The notes under the pieces are model-generated. The model was not told the origin of the DNA. It did no database searches and saw only the letters and a program-made list of their open reading frames with translations. From contig JAPPKP010000284.1 of assembly GCA_028819955.1 (NCBI GenBank), forward strand, positions 1 to 20,529: 20,529 nucleotides of DNA, written 5' to 3'. The stretch comes from Rhodospirillaceae bacterium (lineage in GTDB: Bacteria > Pseudomonadota > Alphaproteobacteria > UBA828). The position numbers were made by a program, and so were the translations under genes. Shown in pieces: positions 2,436-20,529 of this stretch. Within the stretch, counting starts at the first letter, position 1. Each line of letters opens with the position of its first letter.

Positions 2436-2470
2436 GCTGGCCGCGGGCCACTCTCGAAGGCCGCTTTTGG

Positions 2471-4004: not shown

Positions 4005-4046
4005 ACGGCGCGCCGCGGCGAGCGCTGAGGGCGCCGGGCGCAGGGC

Positions 4047-5042: not shown

Positions 5043-5072
5043 GATCGCTCGTCCCCGGCCCCCGACCGGCGC

Positions 5073-5100: not shown

Positions 5101-5109
5101 GCAGGTGTC

Positions 5110-7479
5110 CTAATCGCCGTCATCGGAGGCGGCCCTGATCGCGCGCCACACGCGCTCGGCAGTGAACGGCATCTCCACGTGGCGGACGCCGAGGTGCCAG
5201 AGCGCATCGAGGATGGCGTTGCCGATCGCGGCCGGCGGCCCGGAGGTGCCCAGCTCGCCCACGCCCTTGACGCCGAGCGGGTTGGTCTCGGTCAGGGTCA
5301 CGTGGCCGTCCAGCGTGAAGTCGGGCAGGTCGTCCGCGCGGGGCATGGTGTAGTCCATGAACGAGCCGGTTAGCAGCTGGCCCGTCTCCGGCTCGTAGCG
5401 CACGTCCTCCAGCAGCGCCTGGCCGATGCCCTGGGCGGCGGCCCCGTGACGCTGGCCGTCCACCACCAGCGGGTTGATGACGAGGCCGGTGTCCTCCACC
5501 GAGTAGTAGCCGGTGAGCCGCACTGCGCCGGTCTCGGCATCGACGGTGACGGTGGCGACGTGGGTTCCGTAGGGATAGTTGAAGTCGTCCGGGTCGAAGA
5601 ACGCCGCCTCTTCCAGCCCGAGCTCGAAGCCGTCCGGGTAGTCGGCGCCGCGATAGGCCATGTCGGCGATCTCGACGAAGCTCATCCGCCGGTCGGTGCC
5701 GCGCACCGAATAGGCGCCGGCCCCGAACTCGATATCGTCCACGGCGCATTCCATGAGATGCGCGGCGAGGCGGCGGCCCTTCTCGACGATACGGTCGGAG
5801 GCGACGGCGAGCGCCGAGCCCACCACCGTGATCGAGCGCGAGGCCCAGGTCCCGAGGCCGTGGGGGATCCGGTCGGTATCGCCCTCGACGACGTCGATGT
5901 CGGCCATATCGCAGCCGAAGCGGTCGGCCACGATCTGCGCGTAGGTCGTGGCGTGGGACTGGCCGTGGTTGTGGCTGCCGCAGAGCACGGTGATCTTGCC
6001 GCTGGGGTGGACCCGCACGGTGGCCACGTCCCAGAGACCCATGCGGCTGCCGAGGGCCGCCGCTAGCCGGCTCGGCCCGGCGCCGCCCGAGCGAATGAAG
6101 GCAGCCATGCCGATGCCCATCAGCACGCCGTCACCCCGGAGCCTCGCCTGCTCGGTCCGGAGCGCGTCGAGATCGGCGAGCGCGCGGGCCTTGTCCAGCA
6201 CCGCCGGGAAGTCGCCCACATCGTAGGTGACGCCGGTTGCGCTCGCGTAGGGCATGCTTGCCGCGGGCACGAGGTTGCGGGCGCGGGCCTCGACCGAATC
6301 GCGGGCCCGCTCCCGCGCGCCGTTCTCGATCAGCCGCTCGATGACGTAGGTGATCTCGGGATTTCCCGCGCCGCGATAGGCGTCGATCGGCGTGGTGTTG
6401 GTGTAGACGCCGAGCACGCGGCAGTGCAGCGCGGGGATCGCGTACTGGCCCGAGAACATGGTGACGCAGAAGAGCGACGGGATGCAGGCGGCGAACTGGC
6501 TCTGGTAGGCGCCGAGGTTGGCGATGATCTCGGCTTCGACGGCGGCGATGCGGCCGTCCTCATCGAACGCCATGCGCGCCTCGGTCACGTGATCGCGCGC
6601 GTGGATGTCCACCGCAAGCGTCTCGGCGCGGGTCGCGGTCCAGCGCACCGGCCTACCCACCAGCCGCGCGGCCCAGGGAAGGCTCGCCTCCTCCGGGTAG
6701 TGATAGGTCTTCTGGCCGAAGCCCCCGCCGACATCGGGGGCCACCACCCTGATCGCGTGCTCGGGCGCGCGGAGCGTGTCGCGCGAGAGCCACTGGCGGA
6801 CCAGGTGCGGGTTCTGCGTGGTGGACCAGAGAGTGTAGCGCCCATCGGCACGGTCGTACGCGCCGATGGCCGCGCGCGGCTCCATGGCGTTGGGCGCAAG
6901 GCGGTTGTTGACGAGCCTGAGCGACGTGACGTGCGCGGCCGCGGCGAAGGCGGCCTCCGTCGCCTCGGCATCGCCGAGCCGCCAGTCGTAGGCGACGTTG
7001 CTGCCGAACTCTTCGTGGACCAGGGGCGCATCCGCCTCGACCGACATCGCAAGGTCGGTGATCGAGGGGAGCGGCTCCCACGCGACCTCGACGGCAGCCG
7101 CAGCGTCGGCCGCCGCGTGCGGGTCTTCCGCGACGACGAGGGCCACCGTATCGCCCACGTGACGGGCCTCGCCGGCAGCGAAGATCGGCCGGCGGGCGAG
7201 CGCCATCGGGGTGCCGTCGTGGGAGGCGATGTCCCACAGCACGTCTGTCTCGCCGCCGCCGTCGCGCCGCCAGTCCTCGCCGGTGAGCACGGCCAGCACC
7301 CCCGGCATGGCGCGCGCCCTGTCGGTGTCGATAGCCCCGATGCGGGCACGGGCGTGAGGGCTGCGGACGAAGGCGGCATAGGCCTCCCCCGGCAGGCGGA
7401 TGTCGTCCACGAACCGGCCCCGGCCGGTCAGAAACCGATCGTCCTCGACGCGCGTGTGCGCAGCACCGACGTGCGCCAT
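5110..7479 (-). CDS. Xanthine dehydrogenase/CoxL-family molybdopterin-binding large subunit
   Basis: This 789-residue large subunit of the molybdenum hydroxylase family would hold the molybdopterin cytosine dinucleotide cofactor and oxidise an aldehyde, N-heterocycle or similar compound. The N-terminal a/b hammerhead domain covers about residues 15-135. The cofactor-binding part shows PDVGGGFGQK (249-258), and the active-site loop is DAYRGAGNPE (366-375). The catalytic glutamate is in GVGELGTSG (Glu742). The loop is closer to form II CoxL and aldehyde oxidases (AYRGAGR) than to true CO dehydrogenase (AYxCSFR), and its usual arginine is replaced by Asn. A GGGGGAG ribosome site precedes the ATG. 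No medium (FAD) or small (2Fe-2S) subunit gene lies beside it, so partners must be encoded elsewhere. Substrate unknown. Confidence 0.88.
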   Translation of the reverse strand: MAHVGAAHTRVEDDRFLTGRGRFVDDIRLPGEAYAAFVRSPHARARIGAIDTDRARAMPGVLAVLTGEDWRRDGGGETDVLWDIASHDGTPMALARRPIFAAGEARHVGDTVALVVAEDPHAAADAAAAVEVAWEPLPSITDLAMSVEADAPLVHEEFGSNVAYDWRLGDAEATEAAFAAAAHVTSLRLVNNRLAPNAMEPRAAIGAYDRADGRYTLWSTTQNPHLVRQWLSRDTLRAPEHAIRVVAPDVGGGFGQKTYHYPEEASLPWAARLVGRPVRWTATRAETLAVDIHARDHVTEARMAFDEDGRIAAVEAEIIANLGAYQSQFAACIPSLFCVTMFSGQYAIPALHCRVLGVYTNTTPIDAYRGAGNPEITYVIERLIENGARERARDSVEARARNLVPAASMPYASATGVTYDVGDFPAVLDKARALADLDALRTEQARLRGDGVLMGIGMAAFIRSGGAGPSRLAAALGSRMGLWDVATVRVHPSGKITVLCGSHNHGQSHATTYAQIVADRFGCDMADIDVVEGDTDRIPHGLGTWASRSITVVGSALAVASDRIVEKGRRLAAHLMECAVDDIEFGAGAYSVRGTDRRMSFVEIADMAYRGADYPDGFELGLEEAAFFDPDDFNYPYGTHVATVTVDAETGAVRLTGYYSVEDTGLVINPLVVDGQRHGAAAQGIGQALLEDVRYEPETGQLLTGSFMDYTMPRADDLPDFTLDGHVTLTETNPLGVKGVGELGTSGPPAAIGNAILDALWHLGVRHVEMPFTAERVWRAIRAASDDGD

Positions 7480-7610
7480 GCGTGCTCCCCCTCAGTTGCG
7501 GCCGCCGCAGACCGCCGCAGGCAGGCTAGTGAGCCGGCGTGCGGGCGTCCACCCTCGGCGGCGGGCGCGTGCTATGGTGAACGCCGGCGCGAAGGAACAC
7601 GGGGGCGACG

Positions 7611-8669
7611 ATGCTGAAGCCGGAGACCGAGGTTCTCGTATCCGAGCTCGACCGGGTGCTGAGCGACCACGTTGAACGGGGCATCGTCGGCGTCTCGCTC
7701 GCCCTCGTCCGGCCGGGCGAAGAGGTGCTGACTCTCGCCGCCGGCTGCGCCGATCAGGCGACGGGAGCACCGCTTACCCCTGACCACCTGTTCAAGACCG
7801 CGAGCACCAAGAAGACCTGGACCGCCGTCGCCGTGCTCGCGCTGGTGAGCGAAGGGCGCGTGCAACTGGATCAGACCATCGAAGGGTGGTTCCCGCACCT
7901 GCCGCGCGCGGCCGAGATCCGCGTGCGGCACCTGCTGAGCCACCGTAGCGGCCTGCCCGAATACGAGGCGTTCATGCCGAAGGGCGCGGCGGACGACTGG
8001 ACGCCGGAGCGAATCGTCGACTTCGCGCTCGCCAACGGCACGCAGATCGGGCCGGGCGAGGCCTTCATCTACTCCAACCCCGGCTACGTGCTGGCGGGCG
8101 AGATCGTTGCCAGCGAGCGGGGCGAGGTGCTCTCCCGATGGCTCAGGCGCGCGGTCTTCGAGCCGGCCGGCATGAGCGAGACCTGGAGCGGCGGAGACGA
8201 GGTCTTTCCGCGCGAGCGCCTTGCCCGCCAATACGTCTTCGTTTCCGCCAGGCCCGACGCGCCGCCGGAGGATTCGTCGGACTGGTTCCCGCTCTCCGGC
8301 ATCGGGGCGGCGGGCGATCTGGTCACCACGCCGCGCGACCTCGCGCGGGGCTTCCAAGCGCTCTTCACCGGGCAGGTGCTGGACCCCGCCGCCCTCGCCA
8401 TGCTGCGCGGCCCGCTGCTGCCGGCCTCCTTCCCGGGCACGAACATCACACACTGCGGCCACGGGATTCTGGTCTCCCGCTTCGGCGACCTCACGATCGA
8501 AGGGCACCTCGGTCAGCTGCGCGGCCACGTCACCATGGCCGGCCATCACGAGCCGAGCGGGATCACCGCCGTGTTCAGCCAAAACTCGTGCTCGAGCGAC
8601 CTTGAGGCCTTCGGCGCAGCCGGCATCCACCCGGCCTTCGCTGAGGTCTTCCGCCTGGCCGGCGCGTGA
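7611..8669 (+). CDS. Serine hydrolase, class C beta-lactamase/PBP4* family
   Basis: This 352-residue protein has the serine beta-lactamase-like fold. The nucleophile motif SxxK is STKK (Ser65, Lys68), the second motif is YSN (Tyr154-Ser155-Asn156), and the third is HLG (299-301) in place of KTG. This HxG form is common in EstB-type esterases and D-aminopeptidases of the family. [15 protein letters not shown] (105-119) is a further family signature. There is no signal peptide, so a cytoplasmic esterase or peptidase is more likely than a true beta-lactamase. It is divergent from the molybdenum enzyme gene (131-nt gap) and convergent with the rubrerythrin gene. The substrate cannot be told from the sequence. 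Confidence 0.85.
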
Positions 8670-8764
8670 TCTCGCAGGCGCGCGCCGCCTCCCGCCGCGA
8701 ATGCGGCGCCTGCGCGTGTCGCGGAGGCGCCGGCAGTAGGCCGGCTGCCGTGAGCGATACAGAG

Positions 8765-8799
8765 CTTGAGCGTCTCCGTGTAAAACGGAAACGCTCAAG
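8765..8799. terminator. Bidirectional hairpin between convergent genes
   Basis: CTTGAGCGTCTCCGT (8765-8779) and ACGGAAACGCTCAAG (8785-8799) form a 15-bp stem with one mismatch around the loop GTAAA. It sits between the stop of the serine hydrolase gene and the stop of the rubrerythrin gene, so it can serve both strands. There is no clear T-tract on either side. Confidence 0.6.
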
Positions 8800-8805
8800 A
8801 AGGGC

Positions 8806-9225
8806 TCAGTCGAGCCCGTCGAGCGCCCTCTGGAAGCGCCCGGCGTGGGATTTTTCCGCCTTCGCCAGGGTCTCGAACCAGTCGGCGATCTCGTCGAAGC
8901 CCTCGTCGCGGGCGGTGCGCGCCATGCCGGGATACATGTCGGTGTACTCGTGGGTCTCGCCGGCCACGGCCGCCGCCAGATTGTCCGCGGTCTGCCCGAT
9001 GGGCTTGCCGGTGGCCGGATCGCCGGTCTCGGCCAGGAAGTCGAGATGGCCGTGGGCGTGGCCGGTCTCGCCCTCGGCGGTCGAGCGGAAGAGCGCGGAG
9101 ACGTCGTTGTGGCCCTCCACGTCCGCCTTGCGGGCGAAGTAGAGATAGCGCCGGTTGGCCTGTGACTCGCCGGCGAAGGCGTCCTTGAGGTTCTGCTCGG
9201 TCTTGCTTCCACCCAATGCTGGCAT
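8806..9225 (-). CDS. Rubrerythrin, diiron domain only
   Basis: This 139-residue ferritin-like four-helix protein is typically a peroxide-scavenging or iron-handling diiron protein in the cytosol. The metal ligands are visible in the expected register: Glu20 ([10 protein letters not shown]), Glu53 and His56 ([10 protein letters not shown]), Glu90 and Glu93 ([14 protein letters not shown]), Glu124 and His127 (AEKSHAGRF). It ends right after the fourth helix and lacks the C-terminal rubredoxin domain with its two CxxC pairs, so electrons must come from a separate protein. AGGGGGAAC gives a good ribosome site. A TTGACG/CATATA promoter lies in the 122 nt between it and irr upstream, and an Irr-box-like palindrome abuts that promoter, suggesting iron control. 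Confidence 0.92.
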
Positions 9226-9308
9226 GGTCCTGTTCCCCCTAAGGTATGGTTCGAGGTGCTGGGCCGCCGCACTGCAGGACGCGAGTACGGCCGGTGTGTT
9301 CGCTACCC

Positions 9309-9337
9309 TATATGACGCAGCGCACGGCCTTCGTCAA
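9309..9337 (-). promoter_or_regulatory. Putative rubrerythrin promoter
   Basis: On the minus strand, TTGACG (9332-9337) and CATATA (9309-9314) are separated by 17 nt, about 85 nt before the rubrerythrin start codon. TATAGG, shifted by two bases, is an alternative -10. The placement just after the end of irr means rubrerythrin can be transcribed on its own. Confidence 0.45.
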
Positions 9338-9342
9338 CGGAT

Positions 9343-9355
9343 TGGAATCATTCCA
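9343..9355. promoter_or_regulatory. Irr/Fur-box-like palindrome across the irr stop codon
   Basis: TGGAATCATTCCA is a perfect 13-bp inverted repeat (TGGAAT, C, ATTCCA). It resembles the Irr iron-control element, whose consensus is close to TTTAGAATNATTCTAAA. It overlaps the last codons and TGA stop of irr and lies 5 nt upstream of the -35 of the rubrerythrin promoter. Binding by the neighbouring Irr is inferred. Confidence 0.5.
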
Positions 9356-9809
9356 GGGTGCGAGAGTGGCGCGGGGCCTTCGAGCCCTTGTCTTCCCCGT
9401 CGCCGGTCACGCGGATGATGACGTCGATACGCGAGACCCTGGTTCCCGGCGGCGCAGGCGGCAGGTCGCTCACCGAGACGCGATCGCCCGGCACGTCGAC
9501 GAGACGGCCGGTCTCTTCCAGGAAGAAATGCTGGTGATGCGTGGTGTTGGTGTCGAAGAAGGAGGGCCCTGCGTCCACCACGAGCTCGCGCAGCAGACCT
9601 GCCTTCGTGAACTGGTGCAGGGTGTTGTAGACCGTGGCGAGGGAGACTCCCGCTTCTTCCCGCAGCACCTCGGCGTGAAGCTCGGCGGCGGTGACGTGCC
9701 GATCCGGCCCGCCGAAGAGCCGGCGGGCGAGGACGATGCGCTGGCGCGTGGGCCTGAGCCCGGCTTCGCGCAGGCGCGCCGCAGCGTCGCTGTCGGGTAG
9801 TGTCGTCAT
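9348..9809 (-). CDS. irr: Irr, Fur-family iron response transcriptional regulator
   Basis: This 153-residue Fur-superfamily DNA-binding protein fits Irr, which controls haem and iron genes in alphaproteobacteria when iron is low. The winged-helix segment LRPTRQRIVLARRLF and VSLATVYNTLHQFTKAGLL is followed by FDTNTTHHQHFFLEETGRLVD in two overlapping parts. The HHQH (91-94) with DTN before it is characteristic of Irr. The protein has no cysteine at all, so it lacks both Fur-type structural zinc cysteines and the N-terminal CP haem-regulatory motif of Bradyrhizobium Irr. I chose the ATG at 9809 (MTTLPDSDAA) over an in-frame GTG at 9875, because the extra 22 residues do not look like Irr and the shorter form has the usual length. 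Confidence 0.87.
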   Translation of the reverse strand: MTTLPDSDAAARLREAGLRPTRQRIVLARRLFGGPDRHVTAAELHAEVLREEAGVSLATVYNTLHQFTKAGLLRELVVDAGPSFFDTNTTHHQHFFLEETGRLVDVPGDRVSVSDLPPAPPGTRVSRIDVIIRVTGDGEDKGSKAPRHSRTLE

Positions 9810-9917
9810 CTCTATGCCATGCCTTCGATACCGTGATTCATAGCACAAGTTGGCGACGAGTGCCGGGTGGAGCACGATGGGCTACCATGATGACTCCGAT
9901 CCTGAGGAGGATGCGCT

Positions 9918-12005
9918 GTGCCGAGCGAGTTCGTTGCCACCGCCTGCCCCCACGACTGCCCGTCCACCTGCGCGTTGGAGGTGGAGCGGCTCTCGCCGGA
10001 GAGGATCGGCGCGGTCAGAGGCGCGCGGGAGAACGACTACACCTCGGGCGTGATCTGCGCCAAGGTCGCGCGCTACGCCGAGCGCGTGCACCATCCGGAG
10101 CGCCTCGCGCAGCCGCTGCAGCGCACCGGCGAGAAAGGCGCGGCCGAGTTCCGCCCCATCGGCTGGGACGACGCGCTGGACCTCATCGCCGACGCCTTCG
10201 TCCGCACGGCGGAGAAGCACGGCCGCGAGGCGGTCTGGCCCTACTACTACGCCGGTACCATGGGCCTGGTGCAGCGCGACGGCATCAACCGCCTGCGCCA
10301 CGTCATGAAGTATTCGGGGCAGGACGAGACCATCTGCGCGCGCCTTTCCAGCGACGGCTGGTGGGCCGGAGTCGGCACCTACGTGGGCTCCGACCCGCGC
10401 GAGATGGCGAAGGCGGACCTGATCGTCGTCTGGGGCTGCAATCCGGCGTCGACCCAGGTCAACGTGATGACCCACATCGCGAAGGCGCGGAAGACGCGGG
10501 ACGCTGCGCTCGTCGTGGTCGATCCTTACGAGACGCGGACCGCCAAGGTCGCCGACCATCACGTGGCTTTACGGCCGGGTACGGACGGCGCGCTCGCCTG
10601 CGGCATCATGCACGTGCTCTTTGCCGAGGGCTTCGCGGACCGCGACTACCTCGCCCGCTACACCGACCACCCGGACGAGTTCGAGGCCCACCTCACGAGC
10701 CGCAACCCCGCGTGGGCATCCGCCATCACCGGCATTTCGGCAGCCGAGATCGTTGCACTGGCCCGCATGATCGGGCGCGTCAAGCGCACCTACATCCGCC
10801 TCGGCTACGGCTTCACCCGCTCGCGCAACGGGGCCGCGAACATGCACGCCGCCAGCTGCATCGCGGCGGTCACCGGCGCCTGGCAGTACGAGGGCGGCGG
10901 CGCGATGCACACCAACAAGAGCGTCTACGGCGTCGATGCCACGCTGATCGAGGGGCTCGACGCGAGAGACCGCTCGGTGCGGCTGCTCGACATGTCGCGC
11001 ATCGGCCCGGTGCTGACCGGAGACCCCATCGACATCGGCGACGGCCCGCCGGTCACCGCCATCGTCATGCAGAACGTCAACCCGGCAGCGGTCGCGCCGG
11101 AATCGGCCAAGGTACGGGACGGCCTCATCCGCGAGGACCTGTTCCTCGCCGTGCACGAGCAGTTCATGACCGACACCGCGCGCTACGCCGACATCGTGCT
11201 GCCGGCGACGACCTTCCTGGAGCACGACGACATCTACGTGGGCGGCGGGCACATGTACCTGCTGATGGGTGCCAAGGTGATCGAGCCCTACGCCGAGGCG
11301 CGCTCCAACCACGACGTGATCCGCGCGCTCGCCAAACGGCTCGGCGCCGAGCATCCGGGCTTCGACATGACCGCGTGGGAGCTGATCGACGCGACCCTCA
11401 AGCGCTCGGGCCACCCCGACGCGGCGACGCTCAAGGCCATGCGCTGGAAGGACTGCATGCCGGACTTCGAGACTGCCCATCACCTGAACGGTTTCGGCTG
11501 GCCGGACGGGCGCTTCCGCTTCAAGCCGGATTGGACCAGGATGGGGCCGCGCGGCGCCGAGATCCCGGCCTTCCCCGACCACATGGCGGTGACCGAGGCG
11601 GCGGACACCGAGCATCCCTTCCGCCTCGTCACCGCGCCCGCGCACAACTATCTCAACTCCAGCTTCAGCGAGACGCCCACCAGCATAGCCAAGGAGAGGC
11701 GGCCCTCCGCCCTCTTCCACCCCGGCGACGCCCGCGACTTGGGCTTCGAGGACGGCGACCGCATCCGCATCGGCAACCGGCGGGGCTCCATCCTGATTCA
11801 CGCGCGCATCGCGAACGGTGCCGGCAGGGCCAACGGCACCACGCATGGCCAGCAGCGCGGCACCGTCATCGTCGAGAGCATCTGGCCCAACACCGCCTTC
11901 GAGGAAGGGCTCGGGATCAACACGCTGACCTCGGCCGATCCCGGCTATCCCAACGGCGGCGCGGTGTTCCACGACACCGCCATCTGGGCCCGGCCGGCGA
12001 ATTAG
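9918..12005 (+). CDS. Molybdopterin-dependent oxidoreductase, DMSO reductase family
   Basis: This 695-residue catalytic protein of the Mo-bis-MGD family has an N-terminal [4Fe-4S] motif, CPHDCPSTC with Cys10, Cys14, Cys18 and Cys47. DLIVVWGCNPASTQVNVMTH (about 167-186) and RLGYGFTRSRNGAANMHA are typical cofactor-binding segments, and the C-terminal molybdopterin-dinucleotide domain begins near FRLVTAPAHNYLNSSF. There is no twin-arginine signal, so it should be cytoplasmic. GTG at 9918 is the start: AGGAGG lies 7 nt before it. It stands alone, with no iron-sulfur or membrane partner subunit nearby. Members are usually annotated only generally; electron donor and substrate are unknown. Confidence 0.88.
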   Translation: MPSEFVATACPHDCPSTCALEVERLSPERIGAVRGARENDYTSGVICAKVARYAERVHHPERLAQPLQRTGEKGAAEFRPIGWDDALDLIADAFVRTAEKHGREAVWPYYYAGTMGLVQRDGINRLRHVMKYSGQDETICARLSSDGWWAGVGTYVGSDPREMAKADLIVVWGCNPASTQVNVMTHIAKARKTRDAALVVVDPYETRTAKVADHHVALRPGTDGALACGIMHVLFAEGFADRDYLARYTDHPDEFEAHLTSRNPAWASAITGISAAEIVALARMIGRVKRTYIRLGYGFTRSRNGAANMHAASCIAAVTGAWQYEGGGAMHTNKSVYGVDATLIEGLDARDRSVRLLDMSRIGPVLTGDPIDIGDGPPVTAIVMQNVNPAAVAPESAKVRDGLIREDLFLAVHEQFMTDTARYADIVLPATTFLEHDDIYVGGGHMYLLMGAKVIEPYAEARSNHDVIRALAKRLGAEHPGFDMTAWELIDATLKRSGHPDAATLKAMRWKDCMPDFETAHHLNGFGWPDGRFRFKPDWTRMGPRGAEIPAFPDHMAVTEAADTEHPFRLVTAPAHNYLNSSFSETPTSIAKERRPSALFHPGDARDLGFEDGDRIRIGNRRGSILIHARIANGAGRANGTTHGQQRGTVIVESIWPNTAFEEGLGINTLTSADPGYPNGGAVFHDTAIWARPAN

Positions 12006-12007
12006 AG

Positions 12008-12027
12008 CGCCGCCGCGGCGGGCGGCG
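12008..12027. terminator. GC-rich hairpin between convergent genes
   Basis: CGCCGCC (12008-12014) and GGCGGCG (12021-12027) can pair as a 7-bp stem just after the oxidoreductase stop and before the amidase stop on the other strand. There is no T-tract, so this is only a possible shared terminator. Confidence 0.3.
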
Positions 12028-12048
12028 AAGCCTCCTATCCGTTAGCGA

Positions 12049-13620
12049 TCAGCACATCTTCCAGTCGGCAGTGGCCTCCAGCGCCGCCGCGACCTGAAGC
12101 ACCTTCGCATCCTCGAAGTGGCGGCCGACGATCATGAAGCCGACGGGCAGGTCGTCGGAGACCCCGCACGGCACCGAGATCGCCGGATGTCCCGTGAGGT
12201 TGAACTGGCAGGTGTTATGGACCATGTCCAGCGCCCGCACGAGGCGCTCCCTGAGCGGCGCGTCGTTACCCGGTATCGGGGTCGCCAGGATGGCCGTGCT
12301 GGGCATCGCCAGCACGTCGCACGACTGCAGCAGATCGTCATAGCTCTGCCGGATCTGCTCGCGGATGTTCTGCGCCTTCGCGTAGTAGCGCCCGTAATAG
12401 TCCCCGTTCATGTATTCGCCGAGCAGCAGCGTCATCTTCACCATCGCGCCCAGGTCATGGGGACGGGCACGGGCACCCTTGGCCACGTTGTCGAGTAGCT
12501 GCGTGTTGTAGAAGCCCAGCCAGTTGGTGCCGGTGTTGTTGGCCTTCAACATGAAGGCCTGCGCGCCCTCGACGACGATGGGCCGCCAGACGTGAAGGGC
12601 GTCCTCGTGGCGCGGGTTGGAGACCTCGGCGACCTCGACGCCGGCACCTGCGAGCCGCTCGACGGCGGCGTGCACCTTGTCCGAGACCACCCTGTTGCCG
12701 GGCGGCAGCCCCGTATCGCCCCAGGACTCGGCGCCCATGCCGTGGTCGAATCCCTCCTTCAGAACGCCGATCCTCATGCCCTTGCAGCCCCTGTCGAGAC
12801 CGGTGAGGTAGTCCGTGTCCAGACCGGCCGGGATCCGGCCCCGCTGGCGTGGATCGAGGGGGTCCTCGCCTGCGATCGCGGTGAGCAGCCGCGCGGTGTT
12901 CTCCACCGTGTCGGCCATGGGTCCGAGATGGTCAATGGTCATCTCGATCATCATGGCGCCGGTATAGGGCACGAGGCCGTAAGTCGGCTTATGGCCGACG
13001 ATACCGCTCCAACTCGCTGGGATACGGATCGAGCCGCCCTGATCGCCGCCGATCGCCATGTCGATGTCGCCGGCGACGATGGCCGCGGCGTTGCCGTTCG
13101 ACGACGCGCCGGTGGAATGGGTCGGCTTGTGCGGGTTGCGCACGGGGCCGTACGCCGAGGTGTGGCTCGCGCCGGAGAACGAGCTGTCCTCGCTGTTTGT
13201 CTTGCCGAGGACGGTGCCGCCGGCGTCGAGCACGCGCGTCACCACCGTGGCGTCGATATCGGGGATATAGCCCTCCATCCCCTTGGCGCCGTTGATCATG
13301 GGAAGGCCCGCAACGCAGATCGCATCCTTGATGCCGACCCGCTTGCCGGCAAGTACGCCGTCCGCCGCGCCCTCGATTGCGCCCTTCACGTACCAGGCGT
13401 TGTACGGATCCTCCTCGGGTCCCGGCCGGTAGGAGCCGGCGCGCGGATACTTCACCGGCGGCTTGGTTTCCTGCATCGCGTCGAGACGGCGGTAGCTCCG
13501 CAGCGTCCCCGCCATCATCTCGCTGTAGAGGGCGGCGTCCTCATCGCTCATGGTAAAGCCGAACGGCTCGGCCAGCTCCTGGACCTTCTTCGCGCTCGGC
13601 GGTACTGGACCTATCGGCAT
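12049..13620 (-). CDS. Amidase, amidase-signature family (nitrile-hydratase-associated type)
   Basis: This 523-residue enzyme hydrolyses an amide to acid and ammonia with the Lys-cis-Ser-Ser triad. Lys98 (VGIKDAI), Ser173 (STGASSNG) and Ser197 (GGDQGGSIRIPASW) are spaced 75 and 24 residues apart, as in this family. GIVGHKPTYGLVPYTGA and TIDHLGP match the enantioselective amidases found with Rhodococcus-type nitrile hydratases. The ATG at 13620 is preceded by GGGAGAG; an in-frame start further up (13671) would add 17 residues of unlikely sequence. No nitrile hydratase gene is present here. It converges with the molybdopterin enzyme and diverges from the Sel1 gene. One small oddity: the usual GGSSGG reads GASSNG. 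Confidence 0.9.
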   Translation of the reverse strand: MPIGPVPPSAKKVQELAEPFGFTMSDEDAALYSEMMAGTLRSYRRLDAMQETKPPVKYPRAGSYRPGPEEDPYNAWYVKGAIEGAADGVLAGKRVGIKDAICVAGLPMINGAKGMEGYIPDIDATVVTRVLDAGGTVLGKTNSEDSSFSGASHTSAYGPVRNPHKPTHSTGASSNGNAAAIVAGDIDMAIGGDQGGSIRIPASWSGIVGHKPTYGLVPYTGAMMIEMTIDHLGPMADTVENTARLLTAIAGEDPLDPRQRGRIPAGLDTDYLTGLDRGCKGMRIGVLKEGFDHGMGAESWGDTGLPPGNRVVSDKVHAAVERLAGAGVEVAEVSNPRHEDALHVWRPIVVEGAQAFMLKANNTGTNWLGFYNTQLLDNVAKGARARPHDLGAMVKMTLLLGEYMNGDYYGRYYAKAQNIREQIRQSYDDLLQSCDVLAMPSTAILATPIPGNDAPLRERLVRALDMVHNTCQFNLTGHPAISVPCGVSDDLPVGFMIVGRHFEDAKVLQVAAALEATADWKMC

Positions 13621-13796
13621 TCTGCTCTCCCTCGCTTCCCAAGGCCGCTGGGCAGCGCCCGAACGGCGCACCGCAATCTAGCCCGGACTTTATCTTCAGG
13701 GTCATGGCTCGGCGGGCATGCCGCAAGAGCTGGCAGGCATGGCGGAGAGTTGCTTTTTCTTGCCCACCGGAAGAATCGGGATAATGTTGCCGCGCC

Positions 13797-14558
13797 GTGA
13801 CACTTAGTCCCCCCATCCGAGTCGTCAAGCGCGCCTCCGCGCGGCCCCTTCTCTTCCTCGTGGCAGCCCTTCTGTCGGCTGCCGCGGTGCACGGGCCAGC
13901 CAAGGCGGCCGACCTGCTGGCCGAAGGCGCCGCGGCCTATGAGGCCGGCAACTATGGCGAGGCAGCCTCGATCTGGCGCCCGCTCGCCGAAGAGGGCGAC
14001 CCGAAGGCGCAGTTCAATCTGGCACTCCTCTACGAGACCGGCCGCGGCGTGGCCGAAGACCCGGCCGAGGCTGCGGCCTGGTACGAACGCGCCGCGCGCC
14101 AGGGCGTGACCCAGGCACAGCTCAATATGGCGGCGCTCCATCAGACCGGTCGCGGCGTCGCACAGGACCCGGCGGAGGCGCTCTTCTGGCTCGAAGTCGC
14201 GGCTCGGCTCGGCGAGGGCGCCGCCCGTGAGCAGGCAGCCGACGCCGCCGCCGAATTGGCACCGTTGCTGGAGGGCGGTGAGGCCGAGGCCGCGCAGGCC
14301 CGCGCCAACGCCTTCGCGCCCCGCCCGGAGGAACCCGCGATCCAGCGGGTGGCGGTCACTCTCATACTCTCCGAGCGCCAGATCGAGGTGCTGCAAAGAC
14401 GGCTGGCCGCGCACGGTTACGACCCGGGCCCGACGGACGGTATTCCTGGAGAGATGACGAGAAGCGCCGCACGCCGCTACCTCGCCGACCGGGGCCTCGA
14501 ATGGCCCGAGGGCGAGCTCCTGACCCAGCGTCTTCTGGACCTCGTCGTGGAACCCTAG
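13797..14558 (+). CDS. Secreted Sel1-repeat protein with peptidoglycan-binding-like C-terminus
   Basis: This 253-residue protein starts at GTG. A signal peptide covers about residues 1-38 (hydrophobic PLLFLVAALLSAAAV, cleavage after AKA). Three Sel1/TPR-like helical repeats follow at about 46-66, 67-102 and 103-138, including AQFNLALLYETGRGVAEDPA and its near copy AQLNMAALHQTGRGVAQDPA. The C-terminus (about 195-235, QIEVLQRRLAAHGYDPGPTD) resembles a peptidoglycan-binding type 1 domain. It is probably a periplasmic protein-interaction scaffold linked to the cell wall. GATAAT at 13781-13786 lies only 10 nt before the start, so if it is the -10 the transcript would be nearly leaderless. Confidence 0.82.
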   Translation: MTLSPPIRVVKRASARPLLFLVAALLSAAAVHGPAKAADLLAEGAAAYEAGNYGEAASIWRPLAEEGDPKAQFNLALLYETGRGVAEDPAEAAAWYERAARQGVTQAQLNMAALHQTGRGVAQDPAEALFWLEVAARLGEGAAREQAADAAAELAPLLEGGEAEAAQARANAFAPRPEEPAIQRVAVTLILSERQIEVLQRRLAAHGYDPGPTDGIPGEMTRSAARRYLADRGLEWPEGELLTQRLLDLVVEP

Positions 14559-14596
14559 CGTCCCGTTTGAGAAGTTCGTACGCCTTGCCGAGAACC

Positions 14597-14640
14597 CCAA
14601 CACGTCATGGCCGGGCTTGACCCGGCCATCCACGTGTTGG
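14597..14640. repeat. Alphaproteobacterial palindromic repeat, copy 1
   Basis: An outer stem CCAACACGT (14597-14605)/ACGTGTTGG (14632-14640) and an inner stem ATGGCCGGG (14607-14615)/CCCGGCCAT (14621-14629) enclose the loop CTTGA. The core belongs to the interspersed palindromic element frequent between genes in alphaproteobacteria. It follows the Sel1 gene by 38 nt and may act as its terminator. Confidence 0.8.
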
Positions 14641-14969: not shown

Positions 14970-15674
14970 TCAGTCGGTTTTGACACGCTGGCTCCACACC
15001 CAGGTCAGCAGATCGGCACGCACATAGTACACCCGATTTCCAATCCTGCAGTACGCAGGGCCCTTGCGGGCCGCGCGTAAGCGGTCCAGCGTGCGCGCGG
15101 TCAGCCTGAGGAACGTCGCCGCTTCTTTCGTAGTGAGGAACAACTGGCGGTCATCCTCGGGAGCATGGTCGCGGGCATCCTTGTCCGCCTCTGACGCCGG
15201 AGAGGTCGTTTTCTCTCGCTTCTCGCCCTGCACGGAGGTGCTTGCGCCGTCGTTGAATATCGTGCTGCCGCTGCCCTCCAGCATCCTGGCGATGACGGCA
15301 CGCTGGGAAGGCGTTGCGGTCTCGACCATCCAGGCTCGCACCCGTTCCACCGCAGAGAGCCGGACCGCTCCTTCCTCGAGTGTGCCGACGAACCAGGGAT
15401 AGCCGGCGGCCTTGGTGCCTAACCTGACCGGCTTGATGGCGGTGACGTCAAGAAAGGCTTCGATCTCGCGTCGGAAGACGGGGCCGATCGGCGCCTCGCT
15501 CAGGAACTGGAGCAGGCGGTCGGCGGTCTTGAGCGTCATCGTCTGCTGTACTGCAAGCTGCTCCACGAATTGGGGTCGTCCGAGTGCGAGCTTTCCGAAC
15601 TGCTCGTCGGGCATGCCGGTGCGCTTGAGAAAGGCCGAGACCTTGGCGCGGATGTCATCCGTCAGGGTCGTCAC
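14970..15674 (-). CDS. DNA-binding protein: duplicated N-terminal module plus excisionase-type HTH (paralog A)
   Basis: This 234-residue protein of unknown role is the last gene of the operon. Residues about 160-234 form an AlpA/excisionase (HTH_17) domain: FLTTKEAATFLRLTARTLDR, then RKGPAYCRIGNRVYYVRADL. The N-terminal part has two related units, FGKLALGRPQFVEQL (about 26-40) and LGTKAAGYPWFVGTL (about 85-99), each followed by a helix ending in R(L/V)xxF/W. By shape these could be compact lambda-repressor-like HTH units; that is inference. A polar linker (about 134-175) separates the halves. GTG is the start, with AGGAGGAGGGGG about 12 nt upstream. It is clearly paralogous to the next gene upstream along the whole length. 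Possible roles are control of the operon or of element excision. Confidence 0.7.
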   Translation of the reverse strand: MTTLTDDIRAKVSAFLKRTGMPDEQFGKLALGRPQFVEQLAVQQTMTLKTADRLLQFLSEAPIGPVFRREIEAFLDVTAIKPVRLGTKAAGYPWFVGTLEEGAVRLSAVERVRAWMVETATPSQRAVIARMLEGSGSTIFNDGASTSVQGEKREKTTSPASEADKDARDHAPEDDRQLFLTTKEAATFLRLTARTLDRLRAARKGPAYCRIGNRVYYVRADLLTWVWSQRVKTD

Positions 15675-15758
15675 GAACCTCGTTCCCCCTCCTCCTCAGG
15701 TGGTGCCACCGGCGGGCATGGACGGGGTTGCGGGTATCTTCTGCAAGGCGCCAATCGG

Positions 15759-16478
15759 TCACGCTCCCTCTCGGGGGTACCCCCTGCGTTTCGCCCATGC
15801 CCAGGCCAGGATATCGGCGCGGTAATACCGAATTGCCCCTCCCAGCTTGCAATACGCGGGGCCGTCACCGGTATACCGGTAGTGAGACAGCGTGACGGGA
15901 CTCAATCTCAGGAAATCCGCGGCCTCGGACTCGGTGAGCAAGAGTCGTTCCTCAATGGGCTGAGAGCATTCCCCCGGCGGGCTCCCGCGGTCGGAAACAG
16001 CGCAGGGCGCCCCATCGGCCAGAGTGTCCAGCGCCGCCGGGTCCGGGTTGAGGGCGGGCTCCGGCACACCGGGATCGGCAATCGCCCGCGCGATCGCGGC
16101 CCGTTCCCCATAGCCCGCGACCTTGCGCATCCACTTCCGGATCCGCTCGACGGCGAACAGTCGCGGCGATACACCCGAGTTCAACTTCGTCATGAAGGCA
16201 GGATCTCCGATTGCCCCACACCCCAGCTCGGAGCCGTTGGTTTCGGTGATGAGAAGGAACGCCGCGATCTCGGACCGGAATGCCACACCGATGGTCGGCT
16301 CGCCCATGCAGAGCAGCGCCCGGTCGGCCGTGTCCATGGTCGGCCCGTCCGCCATTCGGAGGCTCGCGACGAACCCTCCGTCGCCGATCGCGCGCTCGCC
16401 GAACTCTCCTTCGGTCAATGGCGAGTTGTAGAGAAAGGCCGTCACCAGGGTCAGCAAGTTCTCGGTAAGGCTTGTCAC
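15759..16478 (-). CDS. DNA-binding protein: duplicated N-terminal module plus excisionase-type HTH (paralog B)
   Basis: This 239-residue paralog of the gene 84 nt downstream aligns with it from the first residue (MTSLTENL against MTTLTDDI). The two N-terminal units are FGERAIGDGGFVASL and LGCGAIGDPAFMTKL. The C-terminal HTH_17 domain reads LLLTESEAADFLRLSPVTLS and GPAYCKLGGAIRYYRADIL. A Pro/Ala-rich linker joins them. The start is a GTG with no ribosome site of its own; it overlaps a TGA as GTGA, the usual pattern of translational coupling to the upstream ATPase gene. That TGA, however, is not in the frame of the ATPase, whose ORF runs on through most of this gene in another frame. The role is unknown; DNA binding is well supported by the C-terminal domain. 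Confidence 0.72.
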   Translation of the reverse strand: MTSLTENLLTLVTAFLYNSPLTEGEFGERAIGDGGFVASLRMADGPTMDTADRALLCMGEPTIGVAFRSEIAAFLLITETNGSELGCGAIGDPAFMTKLNSGVSPRLFAVERIRKWMRKVAGYGERAAIARAIADPGVPEPALNPDPAALDTLADGAPCAVSDRGSPPGECSQPIEERLLLTESEAADFLRLSPVTLSHYRYTGDGPAYCKLGGAIRYYRADILAWAWAKRRGYPREGA

Positions 16479-18624
16479 CGGTGACCGCTGTGCCGTCTGC
16501 CCGGTCTGTAAGGGCCATCTGGAACATGTCGATGTTCTTGTGCAGATACCTATGCTCCAGGTCCTTCCAGGTCTTCTGGTCCTGGGTGAGGACGACTGTC
16601 TGGATGCCGGCGCTGATCAGTTCCTCCAGGACGTCAGTCTTGAAATAGGCCCGGTAGTCCTCGTCGCTCGCGAGGATCGGATCATCGAGCACCATGAAGC
16701 CGGCATCCTCGTGCAGGGCGCGGGCGATGAAAAGCGCAAGGCCCAGACAGTGAAGCTGGGACTGGCTGAACACGGCAATGACATCGCGCAACTTCGGGGC
16801 ACTTCGATCGGCGTCAAGCGACAGGCCAGCCTTGAAATCCACGGTACGCCGCGCGCCCTTGCGGGGTCTGACAGCGGAGAAGAAGGTCGGCTCGTCGGGG
16901 CGGAGCAGGTCCCACCAGTGCTGGATGCTGCTGCTCAGATCCACGAACTTGTCATCCAGAACCTTCTCGTTGCCTTTGTCGATCTGGCGTACCGCCGCGT
17001 TCATTTCGCTCTGCAGAGCAAGCCGGGCCTGGCGTTCGATCAGGCTCGCGCGAAGCGCGCCCTGATCGCCGGCGAGATCGATGAGATCTTGCCAGCCGCC
17101 GGTGTCGCTGGCGGCGTCAATGACGGCCGTGAGCTGTTCCAGGAGGGCGGTTTCCGCGTCGGCGTAGAGCTTCAGCAGTTCGGAGAAACCTCGGTAAGCG
17201 GTGGCGGCCTCGCGGAAGCGGGCCCTCAAGGGTTGCGGATCATGCAGGGTGTTCGGTTTCTCCGCATAGCCGTCGACTTCGGCCGTTAGAGCTTTGGCGG
17301 TGGCGTCAAGGGTCGCCCTCGCGCGGGCGAGGTTGCGCAACGCCTTCAGCCAAGGATCGATGACGGCGGTGGCATCCGCTCTCAGCAAGGTTCGGATGCG
17401 CTCCACGCGGAAACCCTCCTGGCGGCGCTTGCTTGAGTTCATTGCGAGGAAGCGGGGGGAGGCGGAAGCGGCTGCCCGATCGAACCCGCGCGCGGACACT
17501 GCCAGGCCGCGCAAAGTGTCAATCGCAGCCGTTTCAGCGACCTGAAAATCCTCGGTCTCCTGCGCGCGTGTGCGGATAAGGGCGATGCGCTCCGGCGTCA
17601 GGCTACCCTCGGTGCCGCACAGCAGGCAGTCGATGGGCTGCGTCGCGGCATCGACGGCTGGGATGGCCAAGGCCTCCCTGAACAGCGCGGTCAGACGGCG
17701 TGTCTCTTCCTCGACCGCTTCGCGTTCGGCCAGGTAGGAATCGAGCTTGCCCCATTCGCCCTGGGCCGGTTCGGTCCAGTCGGCGAGCGGTCTCCTATCG
17801 AATCCGTCAACAGGGAAGGTCTTGGCCCGCCGCGCCAGCAGCAATGCTTCGAGCGCGGCCAGGCGGTCGGCGGGCGTCGTTGGCAATGGGTGCCCGGCCA
17901 CGGTCAGGATGGCTGCGATCGCCTTATCGATGGCTTCGGCAATATCGGCGGGCACCGGGACAGCCGTCCTGAGAGGCGCCAGGAGTGGCCCTGCGTTTTC
18001 GATGGCGGCGGCAGCAGCGAGCCTTTCCCACTGCCGGTCGTGGTCATCGGGCTTGAACTCGGTGTTGAGCACCGCCGCTGCGCTGCGCAGCTCTTCCAGG
18101 TCCGTGACCTCCAGGACCTTCTTGAAATATGTGGCGCGGTCCCCCGGCCGGGCGGAGAAGAGGTATCCGAGAGTATGTTGGGCTAGGACCGGAGCGGCGA
18201 GCGGCGGTTGTGAAAGCACGATGCCGAGGGAGGCGAGATCGCTTTCTTTCGCGTCCTCGCCGTCGATCTGCAATGCTGACTGGCAGTCATTCCGCTTGGC
18301 GTAGTCGGAGATTAGCGTCCGCCTGACCGTGCGCGTCCGGCCGTCTGTGCCGGTGATCTGCGCCTCGACATAGGTCGGCATGGCGACCGGCATATGGGCG
18401 TTGCGCAGTGAGTCGGCGAATTCATCCTGGGTGCTGGCTACGAGCTGGCGTCGGACGATCTGTCCGGTCAACAGGAACTCGAATGCCTCGGCGAGGCTGG
18501 TCTTGCCCTGGCTGTTGGGTGCCCAGATGGCGGCCAGCGACGAGCCGAAGGCGAGCGTCTGTCCCTTCTGGCCGAAAGCCCGGAAGCCCTGAATTTCAAT
18601 CTTGTTGATCTTCGGTGTCGTCAT
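15952..18624 (-). CDS. Rad50/RloC-like ABC ATPase with CxxC zinc-hook candidate
   Basis: The ORF is 890 codons, of which about the first 720 look genuine. Walker A is APNSQGKT (35-42), preceded by the family-typical IQGFRAFG. PIDCLLCGTEG carries a CxxC at 333-336 flanked by helices, like a Rad50 or RloC zinc hook. The signature helix is FSQSQLHCLGLALFIA (619-634) and Walker B is GFMVLDDPI (642-650), with the LDDP form seen in RloC, PrrC and related ATPases. At the switch position the usual His is Gln (LTQDQK, Gln681). After about residue 722 the translation turns Arg/Gly-rich and simply overlaps paralog B in another frame, so the real end is probably near 16470 or the gene is frameshifted. 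It overlaps the upstream small gene by 29 nt. Expected role: ATP-driven DNA sensing or tethering in a defence-like or maintenance system; no nuclease domain is visible. Confidence 0.75.
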   Translation of the reverse strand: MTTPKINKIEIQGFRAFGQKGQTLAFGSSLAAIWAPNSQGKTSLAEAFEFLLTGQIVRRQLVASTQDEFADSLRNAHMPVAMPTYVEAQITGTDGRTRTVRRTLISDYAKRNDCQSALQIDGEDAKESDLASLGIVLSQPPLAAPVLAQHTLGYLFSARPGDRATYFKKVLEVTDLEELRSAAAVLNTEFKPDDHDRQWERLAAAAAIENAGPLLAPLRTAVPVPADIAEAIDKAIAAILTVAGHPLPTTPADRLAALEALLLARRAKTFPVDGFDRRPLADWTEPAQGEWGKLDSYLAEREAVEEETRRLTALFREALAIPAVDAATQPIDCLLCGTEGSLTPERIALIRTRAQETEDFQVAETAAIDTLRGLAVSARGFDRAAASASPRFLAMNSSKRRQEGFRVERIRTLLRADATAVIDPWLKALRNLARARATLDATAKALTAEVDGYAEKPNTLHDPQPLRARFREAATAYRGFSELLKLYADAETALLEQLTAVIDAASDTGGWQDLIDLAGDQGALRASLIERQARLALQSEMNAAVRQIDKGNEKVLDDKFVDLSSSIQHWWDLLRPDEPTFFSAVRPRKGARRTVDFKAGLSLDADRSAPKLRDVIAVFSQSQLHCLGLALFIARALHEDAGFMVLDDPILASDEDYRAYFKTDVLEELISAGIQTVVLTQDQKTWKDLEHRYLHKNIDMFQMALTDRADGTAVTGDKPYRELADPGDGLSLQLAIDRRRVRRARDRRRRVRREPPNGGRADHGHGRPGAALHGRADHRCGIPVRDRGVPSHHRNQRLRAGVWGNRRSCLHDEVELGCIAATVRRRADPEVDAQGRGLWGTGRDRAGDCRSRCAGARPQPGPGGAGHSGRWGALRCFRPREPAGGMLSAH

Positions 18625-18862
18625 GGCTTTGCTTCAGTTCATCGAGACGGGTTGCGACGACCTTCGCGACGGCATCGGTGGGTGTTGCCTCGCCCGGGGC
18701 CGCGTAGGCGGCCACGAGTTTCGCGGTGAGGCTGTCCTCGGGCAGATGCGCGATCAGTCGGTCGAAGTTGGTCTGCGGCGCGGCGGGTTCTCCGCTATTC
18801 GTCGCGTTCGACGGATTTTCGTCATCGTTTTGAGCGCTCGGCTTCTTGTTTTCTGTGCTCAT
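18596..18862 (-). CDS. Small acidic protein of the ATPase operon, unknown function
   Basis: This 88-residue protein has a disordered, polar N-terminus (about 1-28, rich in Asn, Ser, Glu), a helical middle (NFDRLIAHLPEDSLTAKLVAAY) and a charged acidic tail (HDDTEDQQD). I do not recognise a family. Its start codon overlaps the stop of the upstream gene as ATGA, and its end overlaps the ATPase start by 29 nt, so the three genes are translationally coupled. This placement suggests a subunit or adaptor for the ATPase. Its acidity complements the Arg-rich tail of the upstream protein, so the two might bind each other; that is a guess. Confidence 0.65.
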   Translation of the reverse strand: MSTENKKPSAQNDDENPSNATNSGEPAAPQTNFDRLIAHLPEDSLTAKLVAAYAAPGEATPTDAVAKVVATRLDELKQSHDDTEDQQD

Positions 18863-19446
18863 GCGGTTGCCTTTCGTGCGCGGCGCCGGCGTCGGCTCCC
18901 GACGGACCGGGGCTTCGCTTCTTCCTCGTCCGGCGGGTCGCTGAGATCGTGAGCGCCGATTTCGATCATCCGCTGGGCGAGGGAGTTGAAGAACGATTCG
19001 TTGATTTGGCCGGCTTCATAGAGTTGGCGCACGACCAAGTAAGGGTTGAAAATCAGGACGTAGCTGATCGGTCCATTCGGTCCACTCTTGATATCGATGA
19101 AGCCGAGGTCCTTGAGGGTGCGCATGCGCATCGTCCAAGTGCGGACGGCTCGCTCGCCGCTGAACCCAGAGAAATACGCCATCTCGCGGTCCTTGTTGGC
19201 GATAATGAAGGAGTCGTCGTAAGTCCGGCACCACAAGTCGAGATAGGTCGAGGAAACCGGCTTACCCTTGGAGAGGCTGTCCATGATCTTCATGAGCAGC
19301 GGCATCGGCCGCGGAACGCTGAGCCAGCCGTCCGACCGCTCGCGCGACCACAATCGAGCCTCGTCAAGTTCGGGCCAAAGCGTATCGCGCATGCGCAGCT
19401 TCTGGCGGGCGATCTTGCTGAGGCGTTTCTTGCTTTCCGTCGCCAT
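18859..19446 (-). CDS. Winged-helix-like protein, first gene of the ATPase operon
   Basis: This 195-residue protein has no recognised name. The middle part reads like a winged helix: FSGERAVRTWTMRMRTLKDL then GFIDIKSGPNGPISYVLIFN, the pattern of a recognition helix followed by a beta wing ending in an NPY motif, as in replication initiators and some regulators. The C-terminus is strongly basic (RSVGSRRRRRARKATA). The ATG at 19446 has an excellent ribosome site, AGGAGGTG (19453-19460), with 6 nt spacing; the upstream GTG at 19455 lies within that site and is rejected as start. It leads an operon with the small acidic gene and the ATPase. DNA binding is likely; whether it regulates, initiates or senses is open. 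Confidence 0.7.
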   Translation of the reverse strand: MATESKKRLSKIARQKLRMRDTLWPELDEARLWSRERSDGWLSVPRPMPLLMKIMDSLSKGKPVSSTYLDLWCRTYDDSFIIANKDREMAYFSGFSGERAVRTWTMRMRTLKDLGFIDIKSGPNGPISYVLIFNPYLVVRQLYEAGQINESFFNSLAQRMIEIGAHDLSDPPDEEEAKPRSVGSRRRRRARKATA

Positions 19447-19596
19447 GTCTTGCACCTCCTAGCGTTCGGACGAAAGATCGGGCCGAGGTGTGGACGCCCG
19501 GCCCTGCGGAACAATCTTGCCCGCACATGCGTCGCTCCGCTCCGTGCCGCGCACCGAAACAAGCCGTTTGGACCCGACATATTCGCTGCAACTGTC

Positions 19597-19611
19597 CGCT
19601 ACTGAGTAGCG
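19597..19611. promoter_or_regulatory. Palindromic operator candidate upstream of the ATPase operon
   Basis: CGCTACT-G-AGTAGCG is a perfect 15-bp inverted repeat. It lies 13 nt downstream of a perfect TATAAT on the minus strand, so a bound protein would sit just after the transcription start. One of the operon's own DNA-binding proteins is a natural candidate ligand, by inference. Confidence 0.45.
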
Positions 19612-19623
19612 TAAAGGAAAAAT

Positions 19624-19629
19624 ATTATA
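19624..19629 (-). promoter_or_regulatory. TATAAT -10 element for the ATPase operon
   Basis: The minus strand reads TATAAT exactly, inside an AT-rich block (about 19612-19710) that contrasts with the GC-rich surroundings. No good -35 hexamer is found at 16-18 nt. It would give a 5' leader of about 170 nt before the first gene. Confidence 0.4.
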
Positions 19630-19785
19630 AATCAATGACTTAATACTTCATACGGTTTCTGTCTGGAGGTTATATCATATCGATTCATTATTTGAATTAG
19701 AAAAATATGATGTCGATCCGAGATGCGAATTGGAATGCGTGGTTGGAATTAATGGCCGGAGATCAAGGGATTGCCACGGGATCAT

Positions 19786-20010
19786 TGTGTTCCCGGTGCT
19801 CCCATGGTCATGTGCTCGGCTGTGATCCCGGTGCTCCAGGGGTCGCGGGGGAGGAGACCCCTTCCTTTGAGCGCAGATTCGTCCGTCAGTTTGTCCAGGT
19901 CGACTTGGGCACGCGCGCCGTAAGGGGGTGACCCTCCTTGCATAGGGCCGATTGTCGGCTTGGGCCGCGAGGGGCTATCCGCGTGGAGGTGCGGGAACAC
20001 CGGGATCGCT
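19786..20010. repeat. 17-bp repeat, two direct copies and one diverged inverted copy
   Basis: TGTGTTCCCGGTGCTCC (19786-19802) and TGTGATCCCGGTGCTCC (19821-19837) differ at one base and start 35 bp apart. A third copy lies on the minus strand at 19994-20010, matching 14 of 17 bases with the core GATCCCGGTG. This could be a protein-binding site set. Confidence 0.5.
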
Positions 20011-20232: not shown

Positions 20233-20266
20233 TCTGCAATATTCACTGCGCAGTGAATATTGCAGA
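20233..20266. promoter_or_regulatory. Perfect 34-bp palindrome, operator candidate 1
   Basis: The left arm TCTGCAATATTCACTGC (20233-20249) is exactly complementary to the right arm GCAGTGAATATTGCAG plus A (20250-20266), with no loop. The centre is CTGCGCAG. Its right arm contains TTGCAG (20260-20265), which stands 17 nt before TAGAAA (20283-20288), a possible promoter for the gene at 20328. A protein bound here would cover the -35 region. Confidence 0.6.
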
Positions 20267-20327: not shown

Positions 20328-20529
20328 ATGCTTGGCTCGAACGCAATGGAAGGACAGCTGCTGGATGGGCTCCTGGAAGCCCTGCGGGAGCTCCCCGAGG
20401 CGCAGGCGGAGGTCAGTGGGGTCGAACAGCCGGGCTGCCTTGATCGAGGACATGGCGCCCAGGTTGACCTCCGCGTGGGCGGGAAGGCGGTCACCCTGCT
20501 GATTGAGATGAAGAAGGAAGTATATCCCC
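20328..20529 (+). CDS. 5' part of a gene cut by the window end; possibly an AbiEi-like antitoxin/regulator
   Basis: An open frame runs from ATG 20328 to the end of the window (67 codons). ATG 20346 is an in-frame alternative and begins MEGQLLDGLLEALRELP. The later part, AQVDLRVGGKAVTLLIEMKK followed by EVYP, has the beta-beta pattern with an (I/V)E(M/V)KK motif seen at the start of proteins annotated as AbiEi-type antitoxins or related regulators, and also of PD-(D/E)XK nuclease-like folds. The assignment is from memory of family style and is weak. The two palindromes just upstream fit an autoregulated gene. The rest lies outside the window. Confidence 0.5.
   Translation, partial: MLGSNAMEGQLLDGLLEALRELPEAQAEVSGVEQPGCLDRGHGAQVDLRVGGKAVTLLIEMKKEVYP

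Follow-up and report, generated by a model that had tools for sequence, protein, structure and literature searches.

We analyzed a stretch of 20,529 nucleotides (nt) from a Rhodospirillaceae bacterium (contig JAPPKP010000284.1, hereafter the window), whose minus strand carries five open reading frames (ORFs), A to E, between positions 14970 and 19455. An initial annotation, made from the sequence alone, took these for a five-gene operon around a Rad50/RloC-like ATPase, a defence-like or element-maintenance module without a recognizable effector. Comparison with relatives indicates instead that only A, B, and C belong together and that the five genes are not one operon. Together with its upstream DNA (approximately 16480-19900), the A-B-C unit is probably a copy of a mobile cassette that joins gene A to an effector, in this case an RloC-like effector that has been disarmed. 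As judged from the alignments, the effector that seemed to be missing is the lost end of the ATPase itself: the ATPase family has a putative effector domain that the window copy lacks.

Gene A (18859..19446, minus strand) encodes a winged-helix-like protein of 195 amino acids (aa) from an ATG at 19446, gene B (18596..18862, minus strand) a small acidic protein of 88 aa, and gene C (15952-18624, minus strand) is the 890-codon ORF of a Rad50-like ATPase. The common strand of the five ORFs was confirmed, as were the overlaps of A with B (18859-18862, 4 nt) and of B with C (18596-18624, 29 nt), the Walker A, CxxC, and LDDP motifs of the ATPase, and the AT-richer upstream region (52% G+C in 19456-19900 vs 69% in 1-14600). 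The ATPase does not, however, stop at the annotated GTGA junction, where its frame reads GGT GAC and stays open until 15952, overlapping gene D by 527 nt. Homology to relatives covers 16477..18624 (residues 1-716, including the CxxC hook); the remaining open frame (15952..16476, 174 codons, minus strand) prolongs C over D, in a different frame from D, and shows no homology to the relatives' C-terminal domain.

Searching with residues 1-716 of the ATPase gave 353 proteins at E ≤ 1e-3; the listing comprises the best 120 of them. Full-length relatives among these 120 are mostly 835-849 aa long. The window ATPase aligns with them through residue 716 and no further, whereas they go on for about 125 residues; its core, including LDDP and the switch region, is complete. 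Both Walker A and LDDP are invariant in the aligned relatives. P0001, from a record named as a Boseongicola metagenome-assembled genome, is the sole relative among the best 120 that ends at residue 716. It has the same sequence as the window ATPase and lies on a 7,019-base contig that contains the same junction and about 29 codons past it. Six other listed relatives end early elsewhere (at reference positions 417, 530, 539, 546, 797, and 799), and a further four are missing the N-terminal end; these short proteins were taken as contig ends or fragments.

The same limit is seen in the DNA. From 19900 to 16480 the window is colinear with contig C382 of genome G001 (loci L001, L065, and L066) at 86-91% identity, and beyond 16480 there is no window homology to the L001 DNA. 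The break (16474..16485) falls within the palindrome GTCACCGGTGAC, where gene D has its first codon. A tblastn search of the window with the lost domain found no trace of it (best E 0.82). Genes D and E thus lie beyond a break, since the relatives have an additional ATPase domain in their place and the homology between the window and L001 stops at 16480.

By their sequence pattern, the intact relatives are RloC-like. RloC is described, in the part of the source available to us, as a protein of 658-897 aa whose ABC ATPase is interrupted by a CX2C insert and which has a C-terminal Arg-X3-Glu-X36-52-His pattern in which Ser often precedes His (PMC2610378), and the accessible part of a review on HEPN domains classes PrrC and RloC as ABC-HEPN RNases of phage defence (PMC3710099). 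The relatives fall within this length range, have an ABC ATPase split by an insert with C333 and C336, and show R748-X3-E752 followed by X45 and S797-H798. C333, C336, R748, E752, and H814 are invariant in 70/70 aligned relatives; H798 is present in 69 and S797 in 63 of these 70, and either H798 or H814 may be the catalytic His. Two plasmid relatives with about 27-31% identity retain the Arg and Glu residues and the later of the two His residues. The Arg-Glu-His triad is absent from the window copy, whose homology ends at residue 716. In the AlphaFold model the C-terminal domain of the relatives is helical, and confidence is low at about 812-815; structure matches (Rad50, SMC, and Lamassu LmuB) span residues 3-724, the C-terminal part lying outside them. 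By analogy with RloC, the intact relatives would cut tRNA. The initial annotation was right to see a Rad50/RloC-like ATPase with a CxxC hook, and its option that the ATPase itself is the effector fits the intact relatives.

Gene A belongs to a mainly plasmid-borne family. We searched with residues 4-195 (18859-19437) and found 448 proteins at E ≤ 1e-3; searches of Pfam, NCBIfam, PADLOC, and PHROGs with the window A gave nothing at E ≤ 1, and a literature search, limited in library and terms, recognized no paper describing A. The structural model of the same residues (mean predicted local distance difference test score 82, disordered tail from model residue 169) supports the annotated winged-helix character; its matches to many such domains, some of them initiator domains, are weak and tied. 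A was found on 164 of 72,556 plasmid records vs 1 of 50,697 phage records, and in 6/397 genomes of one order and 4/398 genomes of the phylum. One Escherichia coli pair of A and a partner gene occurs in 15/5,426 genomes, and all of its 19 places are on plasmids.

The genes directly downstream of A differ from locus to locus. We read 38 A loci by eye (the window, L001, seven loci from L069 to L075, 18 from L076 to L093, four from L106 to L109, and seven from L111 to L117), counting as a partner any same-strand annotated coding sequence (CDS), or ATG or GTG ORF of at least 50 codons, that starts no more than 35 nt from the A stop, overlaps included. A TTG ORF in L072 was thereby excluded, and for L084, whose record is circular, counting continued over the record start. 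A partner is present in 22/38 loci, counts that are not independent because many of the plasmid loci are close relatives, and the partners are mutually unrelated. Beside the RloC-like B-C pair (window and L001), curated Pfam matches over the cut-off identify TIR_2 (L070, E 2.2e-11), AbiJ_NTD3 plus Abi_C (L079, 4.3e-35 and 3.7e-18), PBECR2 (L082, 4.1e-16; L088 by annotation), YafQ (L093, 6.8e-32), and PIN_3 (L109, 4.6e-7). The other partners are a 164/181-aa group (L077, L083, L084, L085, and L089; those of L077 and L089 have weak YjaZ matches far under the cut-off), a 182-187-aa group recognized by eye (L076, L087, L092, and L115), and five ORFs that are short or unknown (L086, L091, L112, L114, and L116). 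In six of the 22 partner loci (L088 by annotation) an antitoxin-like gene for a putative DNA-binding protein directly precedes a toxin-like gene, the arrangement of type II toxin-antitoxin systems. The proposed defence-like or element-maintenance nature of the locus is borne out by A, a plasmid family that often stands directly before toxin or abortive-infection genes. In L106, a 127-aa ORF 426 nt downstream of A (662-1045, minus strand) looks VapD/Cas2-like by eye, with no Pfam match at E ≤ 0.5.

The DNA upstream of A contains a repeat array. In the window it lies at 19787..19836 (minus strand) and consists of the five words GAGCAC, GATCAC, GAGCAC, GAGCAC, and GAACAC, 9-16 nt apart. Defining a chain as at least three GANNAC words at 8-11 nt spacing, we found that the first three window words form one, which none of 300 crude shuffles reproduced. 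Chains are present upstream of 17/28 A genes, where no more than 1/300 crude shuffles reached one, and of 5/9 further A genes (some of whose start positions are approximate), giving, with L075 left out, 22/37 A genes with a chain of about 9-nt period. The control, 558,056 bases in which the window and the loci longer than 7 kb were read on both strands, contained six chains, all upstream of A, two of them being the same site in L001 and L065. It included some A loci without a chain as well as the B-C loci without A (L002, L063, L067, and L068), in which no chain was found.

A leader hairpin with the loop GTCCACA (19480..19504, minus strand) lies just ahead of the ribosome-binding site of A, downstream of the first GGGTCCAAAC site of the leader (19564..19575, minus strand). 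Nine alphaproteobacterial A leaders, chosen for showing the motif, have this hairpin just before A with the loop GTCCANA. Across them six of the nine pairs are changed on both sides, 93.8% of cells pair vs 77.7% in shuffles, and the covariation score is 0.515 vs 0.187 (0/500 shuffles); slid versions of the hairpin pair in 22-61% of cells. Only 0.05 matches to the hairpin core are expected in the window, and nine of the 10 occurrences of GGTCCAMACC in 110 loci are upstream of A genes. No such hairpin was found in the gammaproteobacterial A leaders examined. Upstream of the solo A of an 11.8-kb plasmid, several GTCCA-type hairpins stand in a row (L078, 3142-3341).

In all six loci examined for partners of the ATPase, the ATPase gene starts within the end of a small B-like ORF, the overlap ranging from 14 to 29 nt (29 nt in the window, L001, L067, and L068, 20 nt in L002, and 14 nt in L063). 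The annotation had asked whether the winged-helix gene always travels with the ATPase; it does not, as in L002 and L063 no A was seen ahead of B, and A is absent from genome G002. The window and L001 are the only loci in which A and the ATPase were seen side by side, and equal-sized longest contigs among six listed A and six listed ATPases (7019, 30806, 38173, 45681, 56056, and 97805) hint that the two are often on one contig. The annotation would have been contradicted by ATPases occurring singly and without partners in core genomes; we found a patchy family, present in 3/397 genomes of the order of G002 (G627, G002, and G580, the last with one internal stop), in G002 alone among 385 genomes of its class, and, in surveys of 14 genomes from the order of G001 and 18 from the genus of G627, in the centre genomes only. 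The remaining matches of these surveys are weak, and their size or span is SMC/RecF-like. As named by reading, the neighbours include ParB-like, SNF2-like, and Hsp90-like genes downstream of the ATPase in L001, methyltransferase-like genes upstream in L002, and a type III restriction-modification-like set upstream in L063. Of the two plasmid relatives with about 27-31% identity, that of Bradyrhizobium (L068, 10001-12432) may be interrupted because it is annotated as two consecutive CDSs.

We propose that A binds its own upstream repeat array and would thereby control the cassette, so that it stays silent or its product does no damage. Behind A, one or more genes would form a swappable self-harming effector that does harm when this control fails, as upon plasmid loss or infection. 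The effector of the window type would be a two-gene RloC-like unit, the small partner B and the Rad50-like ATPase, in whose intact forms the ATPase would sense abnormal or phage DNA and the C-terminal domain would then cut tRNA. In the window, a recombination break at 16480 would have removed the cutting domain and installed two unrelated excisionase-like regulators, D and E. Because the cutting end is gone, the window copy is probably a disarmed remnant that keeps its ATPase core and is not expected to cut RNA. A may be an antitoxin, a repressor, or a plasmid-stability protein. We tentatively suggest that it represents an undescribed, promiscuous, mainly plasmid-borne class of control proteins whose single winged-helix fold would recognize the array and, in alphaproteobacteria, the hairpin, with B as a second, tight partner of RloC-like ATPases. 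On that equally tentative view, A could restrain RelE-type, PBECR2, PIN, TIR, AbiJ-type, and RloC-like effectors across alpha-, beta-, and gammaproteobacteria.

Gene D (15759..16478, 239 aa) and gene E (14970..15674, 234 aa), both on the minus strand and outside the A-B-C unit, are paralogues, as annotated (38% identity, E 7e-46). They had been called proteins with multiple helix-turn-helix domains; each has one C-terminal HTH_17 domain above the cut-off, while their N-terminal parts gave only weak matches (phrog_7669). E relatives are multi-copy in two alphaproteobacterial genomes (five matches in G187 and six in G077), some of them side by side like D and E. At the E end of the cluster, between it and metabolic genes, lies an inverted repeat resembling repetitive extragenic palindromic elements (GCCGGGCTTGACCCGGCC, 14605-14630). 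Beyond the other end, a perfect 28-bp palindrome (GCAATATTCACTGC plus its reverse complement, 20237-20264) stands upstream of an ORF cut by the window end (20328-20529, plus strand, 67 codons), which we take to resemble an AbiEi-type start.

Several observations weigh against a disarmed cassette copy with an RloC-like effector. A also stands alone, 16/38 A loci being without a close downstream gene (L069, L071-L075, L078, L080, L081, L090, L106-L108, L111, L113, and L117), 15/37 A genes lack a three-word chain by the GANNAC word, and B-C is present without A in L002, L063, L067, and L068. Sequence searches with the C-terminal domain of the relatives gave no PDB or Pfam match for its putative HEPN fold, and the junction was seen solely in the window and P0001, which possibly stem from the same assembly. 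A and its array could instead be a plasmid stability or replication-control unit, resembling StbA or an iteron-binding initiator, behind which the genes are cargo that A does not neutralize. We consider this rather unlikely given the close, often overlapping spacing of A to several unrelated toxin or Abi genes and the other replication systems (Rop or ColRNAI, RepM, and RepA) of several host plasmids; moreover, hhalign showed no homology of the A family to R388 StbA (probability 0.4%). The StbA query was L118:6472-6897, which we take to be StbA from its place before stbB, as the record does not name it.

For the ATPase itself three other explanations were weighed. That the 16480 break arose during assembly and the gene is in truth intact would agree with the intact relatives and with the window record probably being a metagenome bin, but P0001 repeats the junction and the window continues smoothly into two intact related genes, which makes such an error improbable. 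Still less probable is that the ATPase is the LmuB of a Lamassu or ABC-three-component (ABC-3C) system with A or B as the middle component. The best PADLOC model for the window ATPase is LmuB (E 1.5e-16), a further LmuB match covers nearly the whole of a Nitrosospira relative (8.5e-26, 19-604 of 611), LmuB structures are among the fold matches, and according to a review, as far as available to us, LmuB has a zinc hook and LmuC is small (PMC10586767). These PADLOC results, which also count against an RloC-like effector, speak for a Lamassu-type reading of the ATPase core; LmuB models also match other Rad50-like ATPases. The relatives, however, are about 840 aa long vs about 650 in that source (PMC10586767) and have their own C-terminal domain, and A and B have no match to ABC-3C middle-component models at E ≤ 1. 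Nor was an LmuA-like effector gene seen: the five window genes have no effector-model match, and the neighbourhoods of the relatives were read by eye only. Least probable of all, and very hard to credit, is a working five-gene operon in which the shortened ATPase, D, and E form a regulatory or tethering complex. The ATPase core is complete through LDDP and the switch region, the next gene on this strand is D, and both D and E have intact ORFs, but among the best 120 relatives only one ends here, at the same locus, and the open frame of the ATPase extends across D in a different frame. In addition, relatives of D and E are found elsewhere in alphaproteobacterial genomes, and no such ATPase lies in the two flanks that were read (L094 and L095). 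We retain a disarmed copy of an A-plus-effector cassette as the preferred explanation.

The closest known kinds of system are RloC, Lamassu, StbA, and promiscuous antitoxins. RloC shares with the intact relatives its length, the ABC ATPase split by a CX2C insert, and the Arg-X3-Glu-X45-(Ser)His pattern. It differs in that the window copy is without the C-terminal domain, that the relatives have a second invariant His (814) and a nuclease activity and HEPN fold that are putative, and that a small B gene overlaps the ATPase start, such a gene not being described in the part of the RloC source available to us (PMC2610378). Some RloC-like ATPases may accordingly work with a small partner, and the window seems to show a defence gene that has already lost its effector end, which would answer where the effector is. 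Lamassu and ABC-3C systems resemble gene C in the hooked Rad50-like ATPase and the PADLOC LmuB matches, but differ in having LmuA and a shorter ATPase without the C-terminal domain of the relatives. StbA of plasmid R388, with its 9-bp direct repeats (stbDRs; PMC3098194, as far as accessible), resembles A as a plasmid gene for a DNA-binding protein, a property A would share, with an array of direct repeats of about 9 nt upstream; the repeat sequence is different, and A is followed by toxin-like genes. The promiscuous Panacea-type antitoxins of the NetFlax network (PMC10440598 and PMC8832971, in the parts available) are likewise single conserved proteins encoded tightly before many unrelated toxin-like genes, whereas A is winged-helix-like, has no Panacea or other Pfam match, is only a putative neutralizer, and has the repeat array and leader hairpin in addition. 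If A does control its partners, it would be a counterpart of the Panacea-type antitoxins on small enterobacterial and alphaproteobacterial plasmids, and the unnamed genes behind it would be flagged as toxin or defence candidates.
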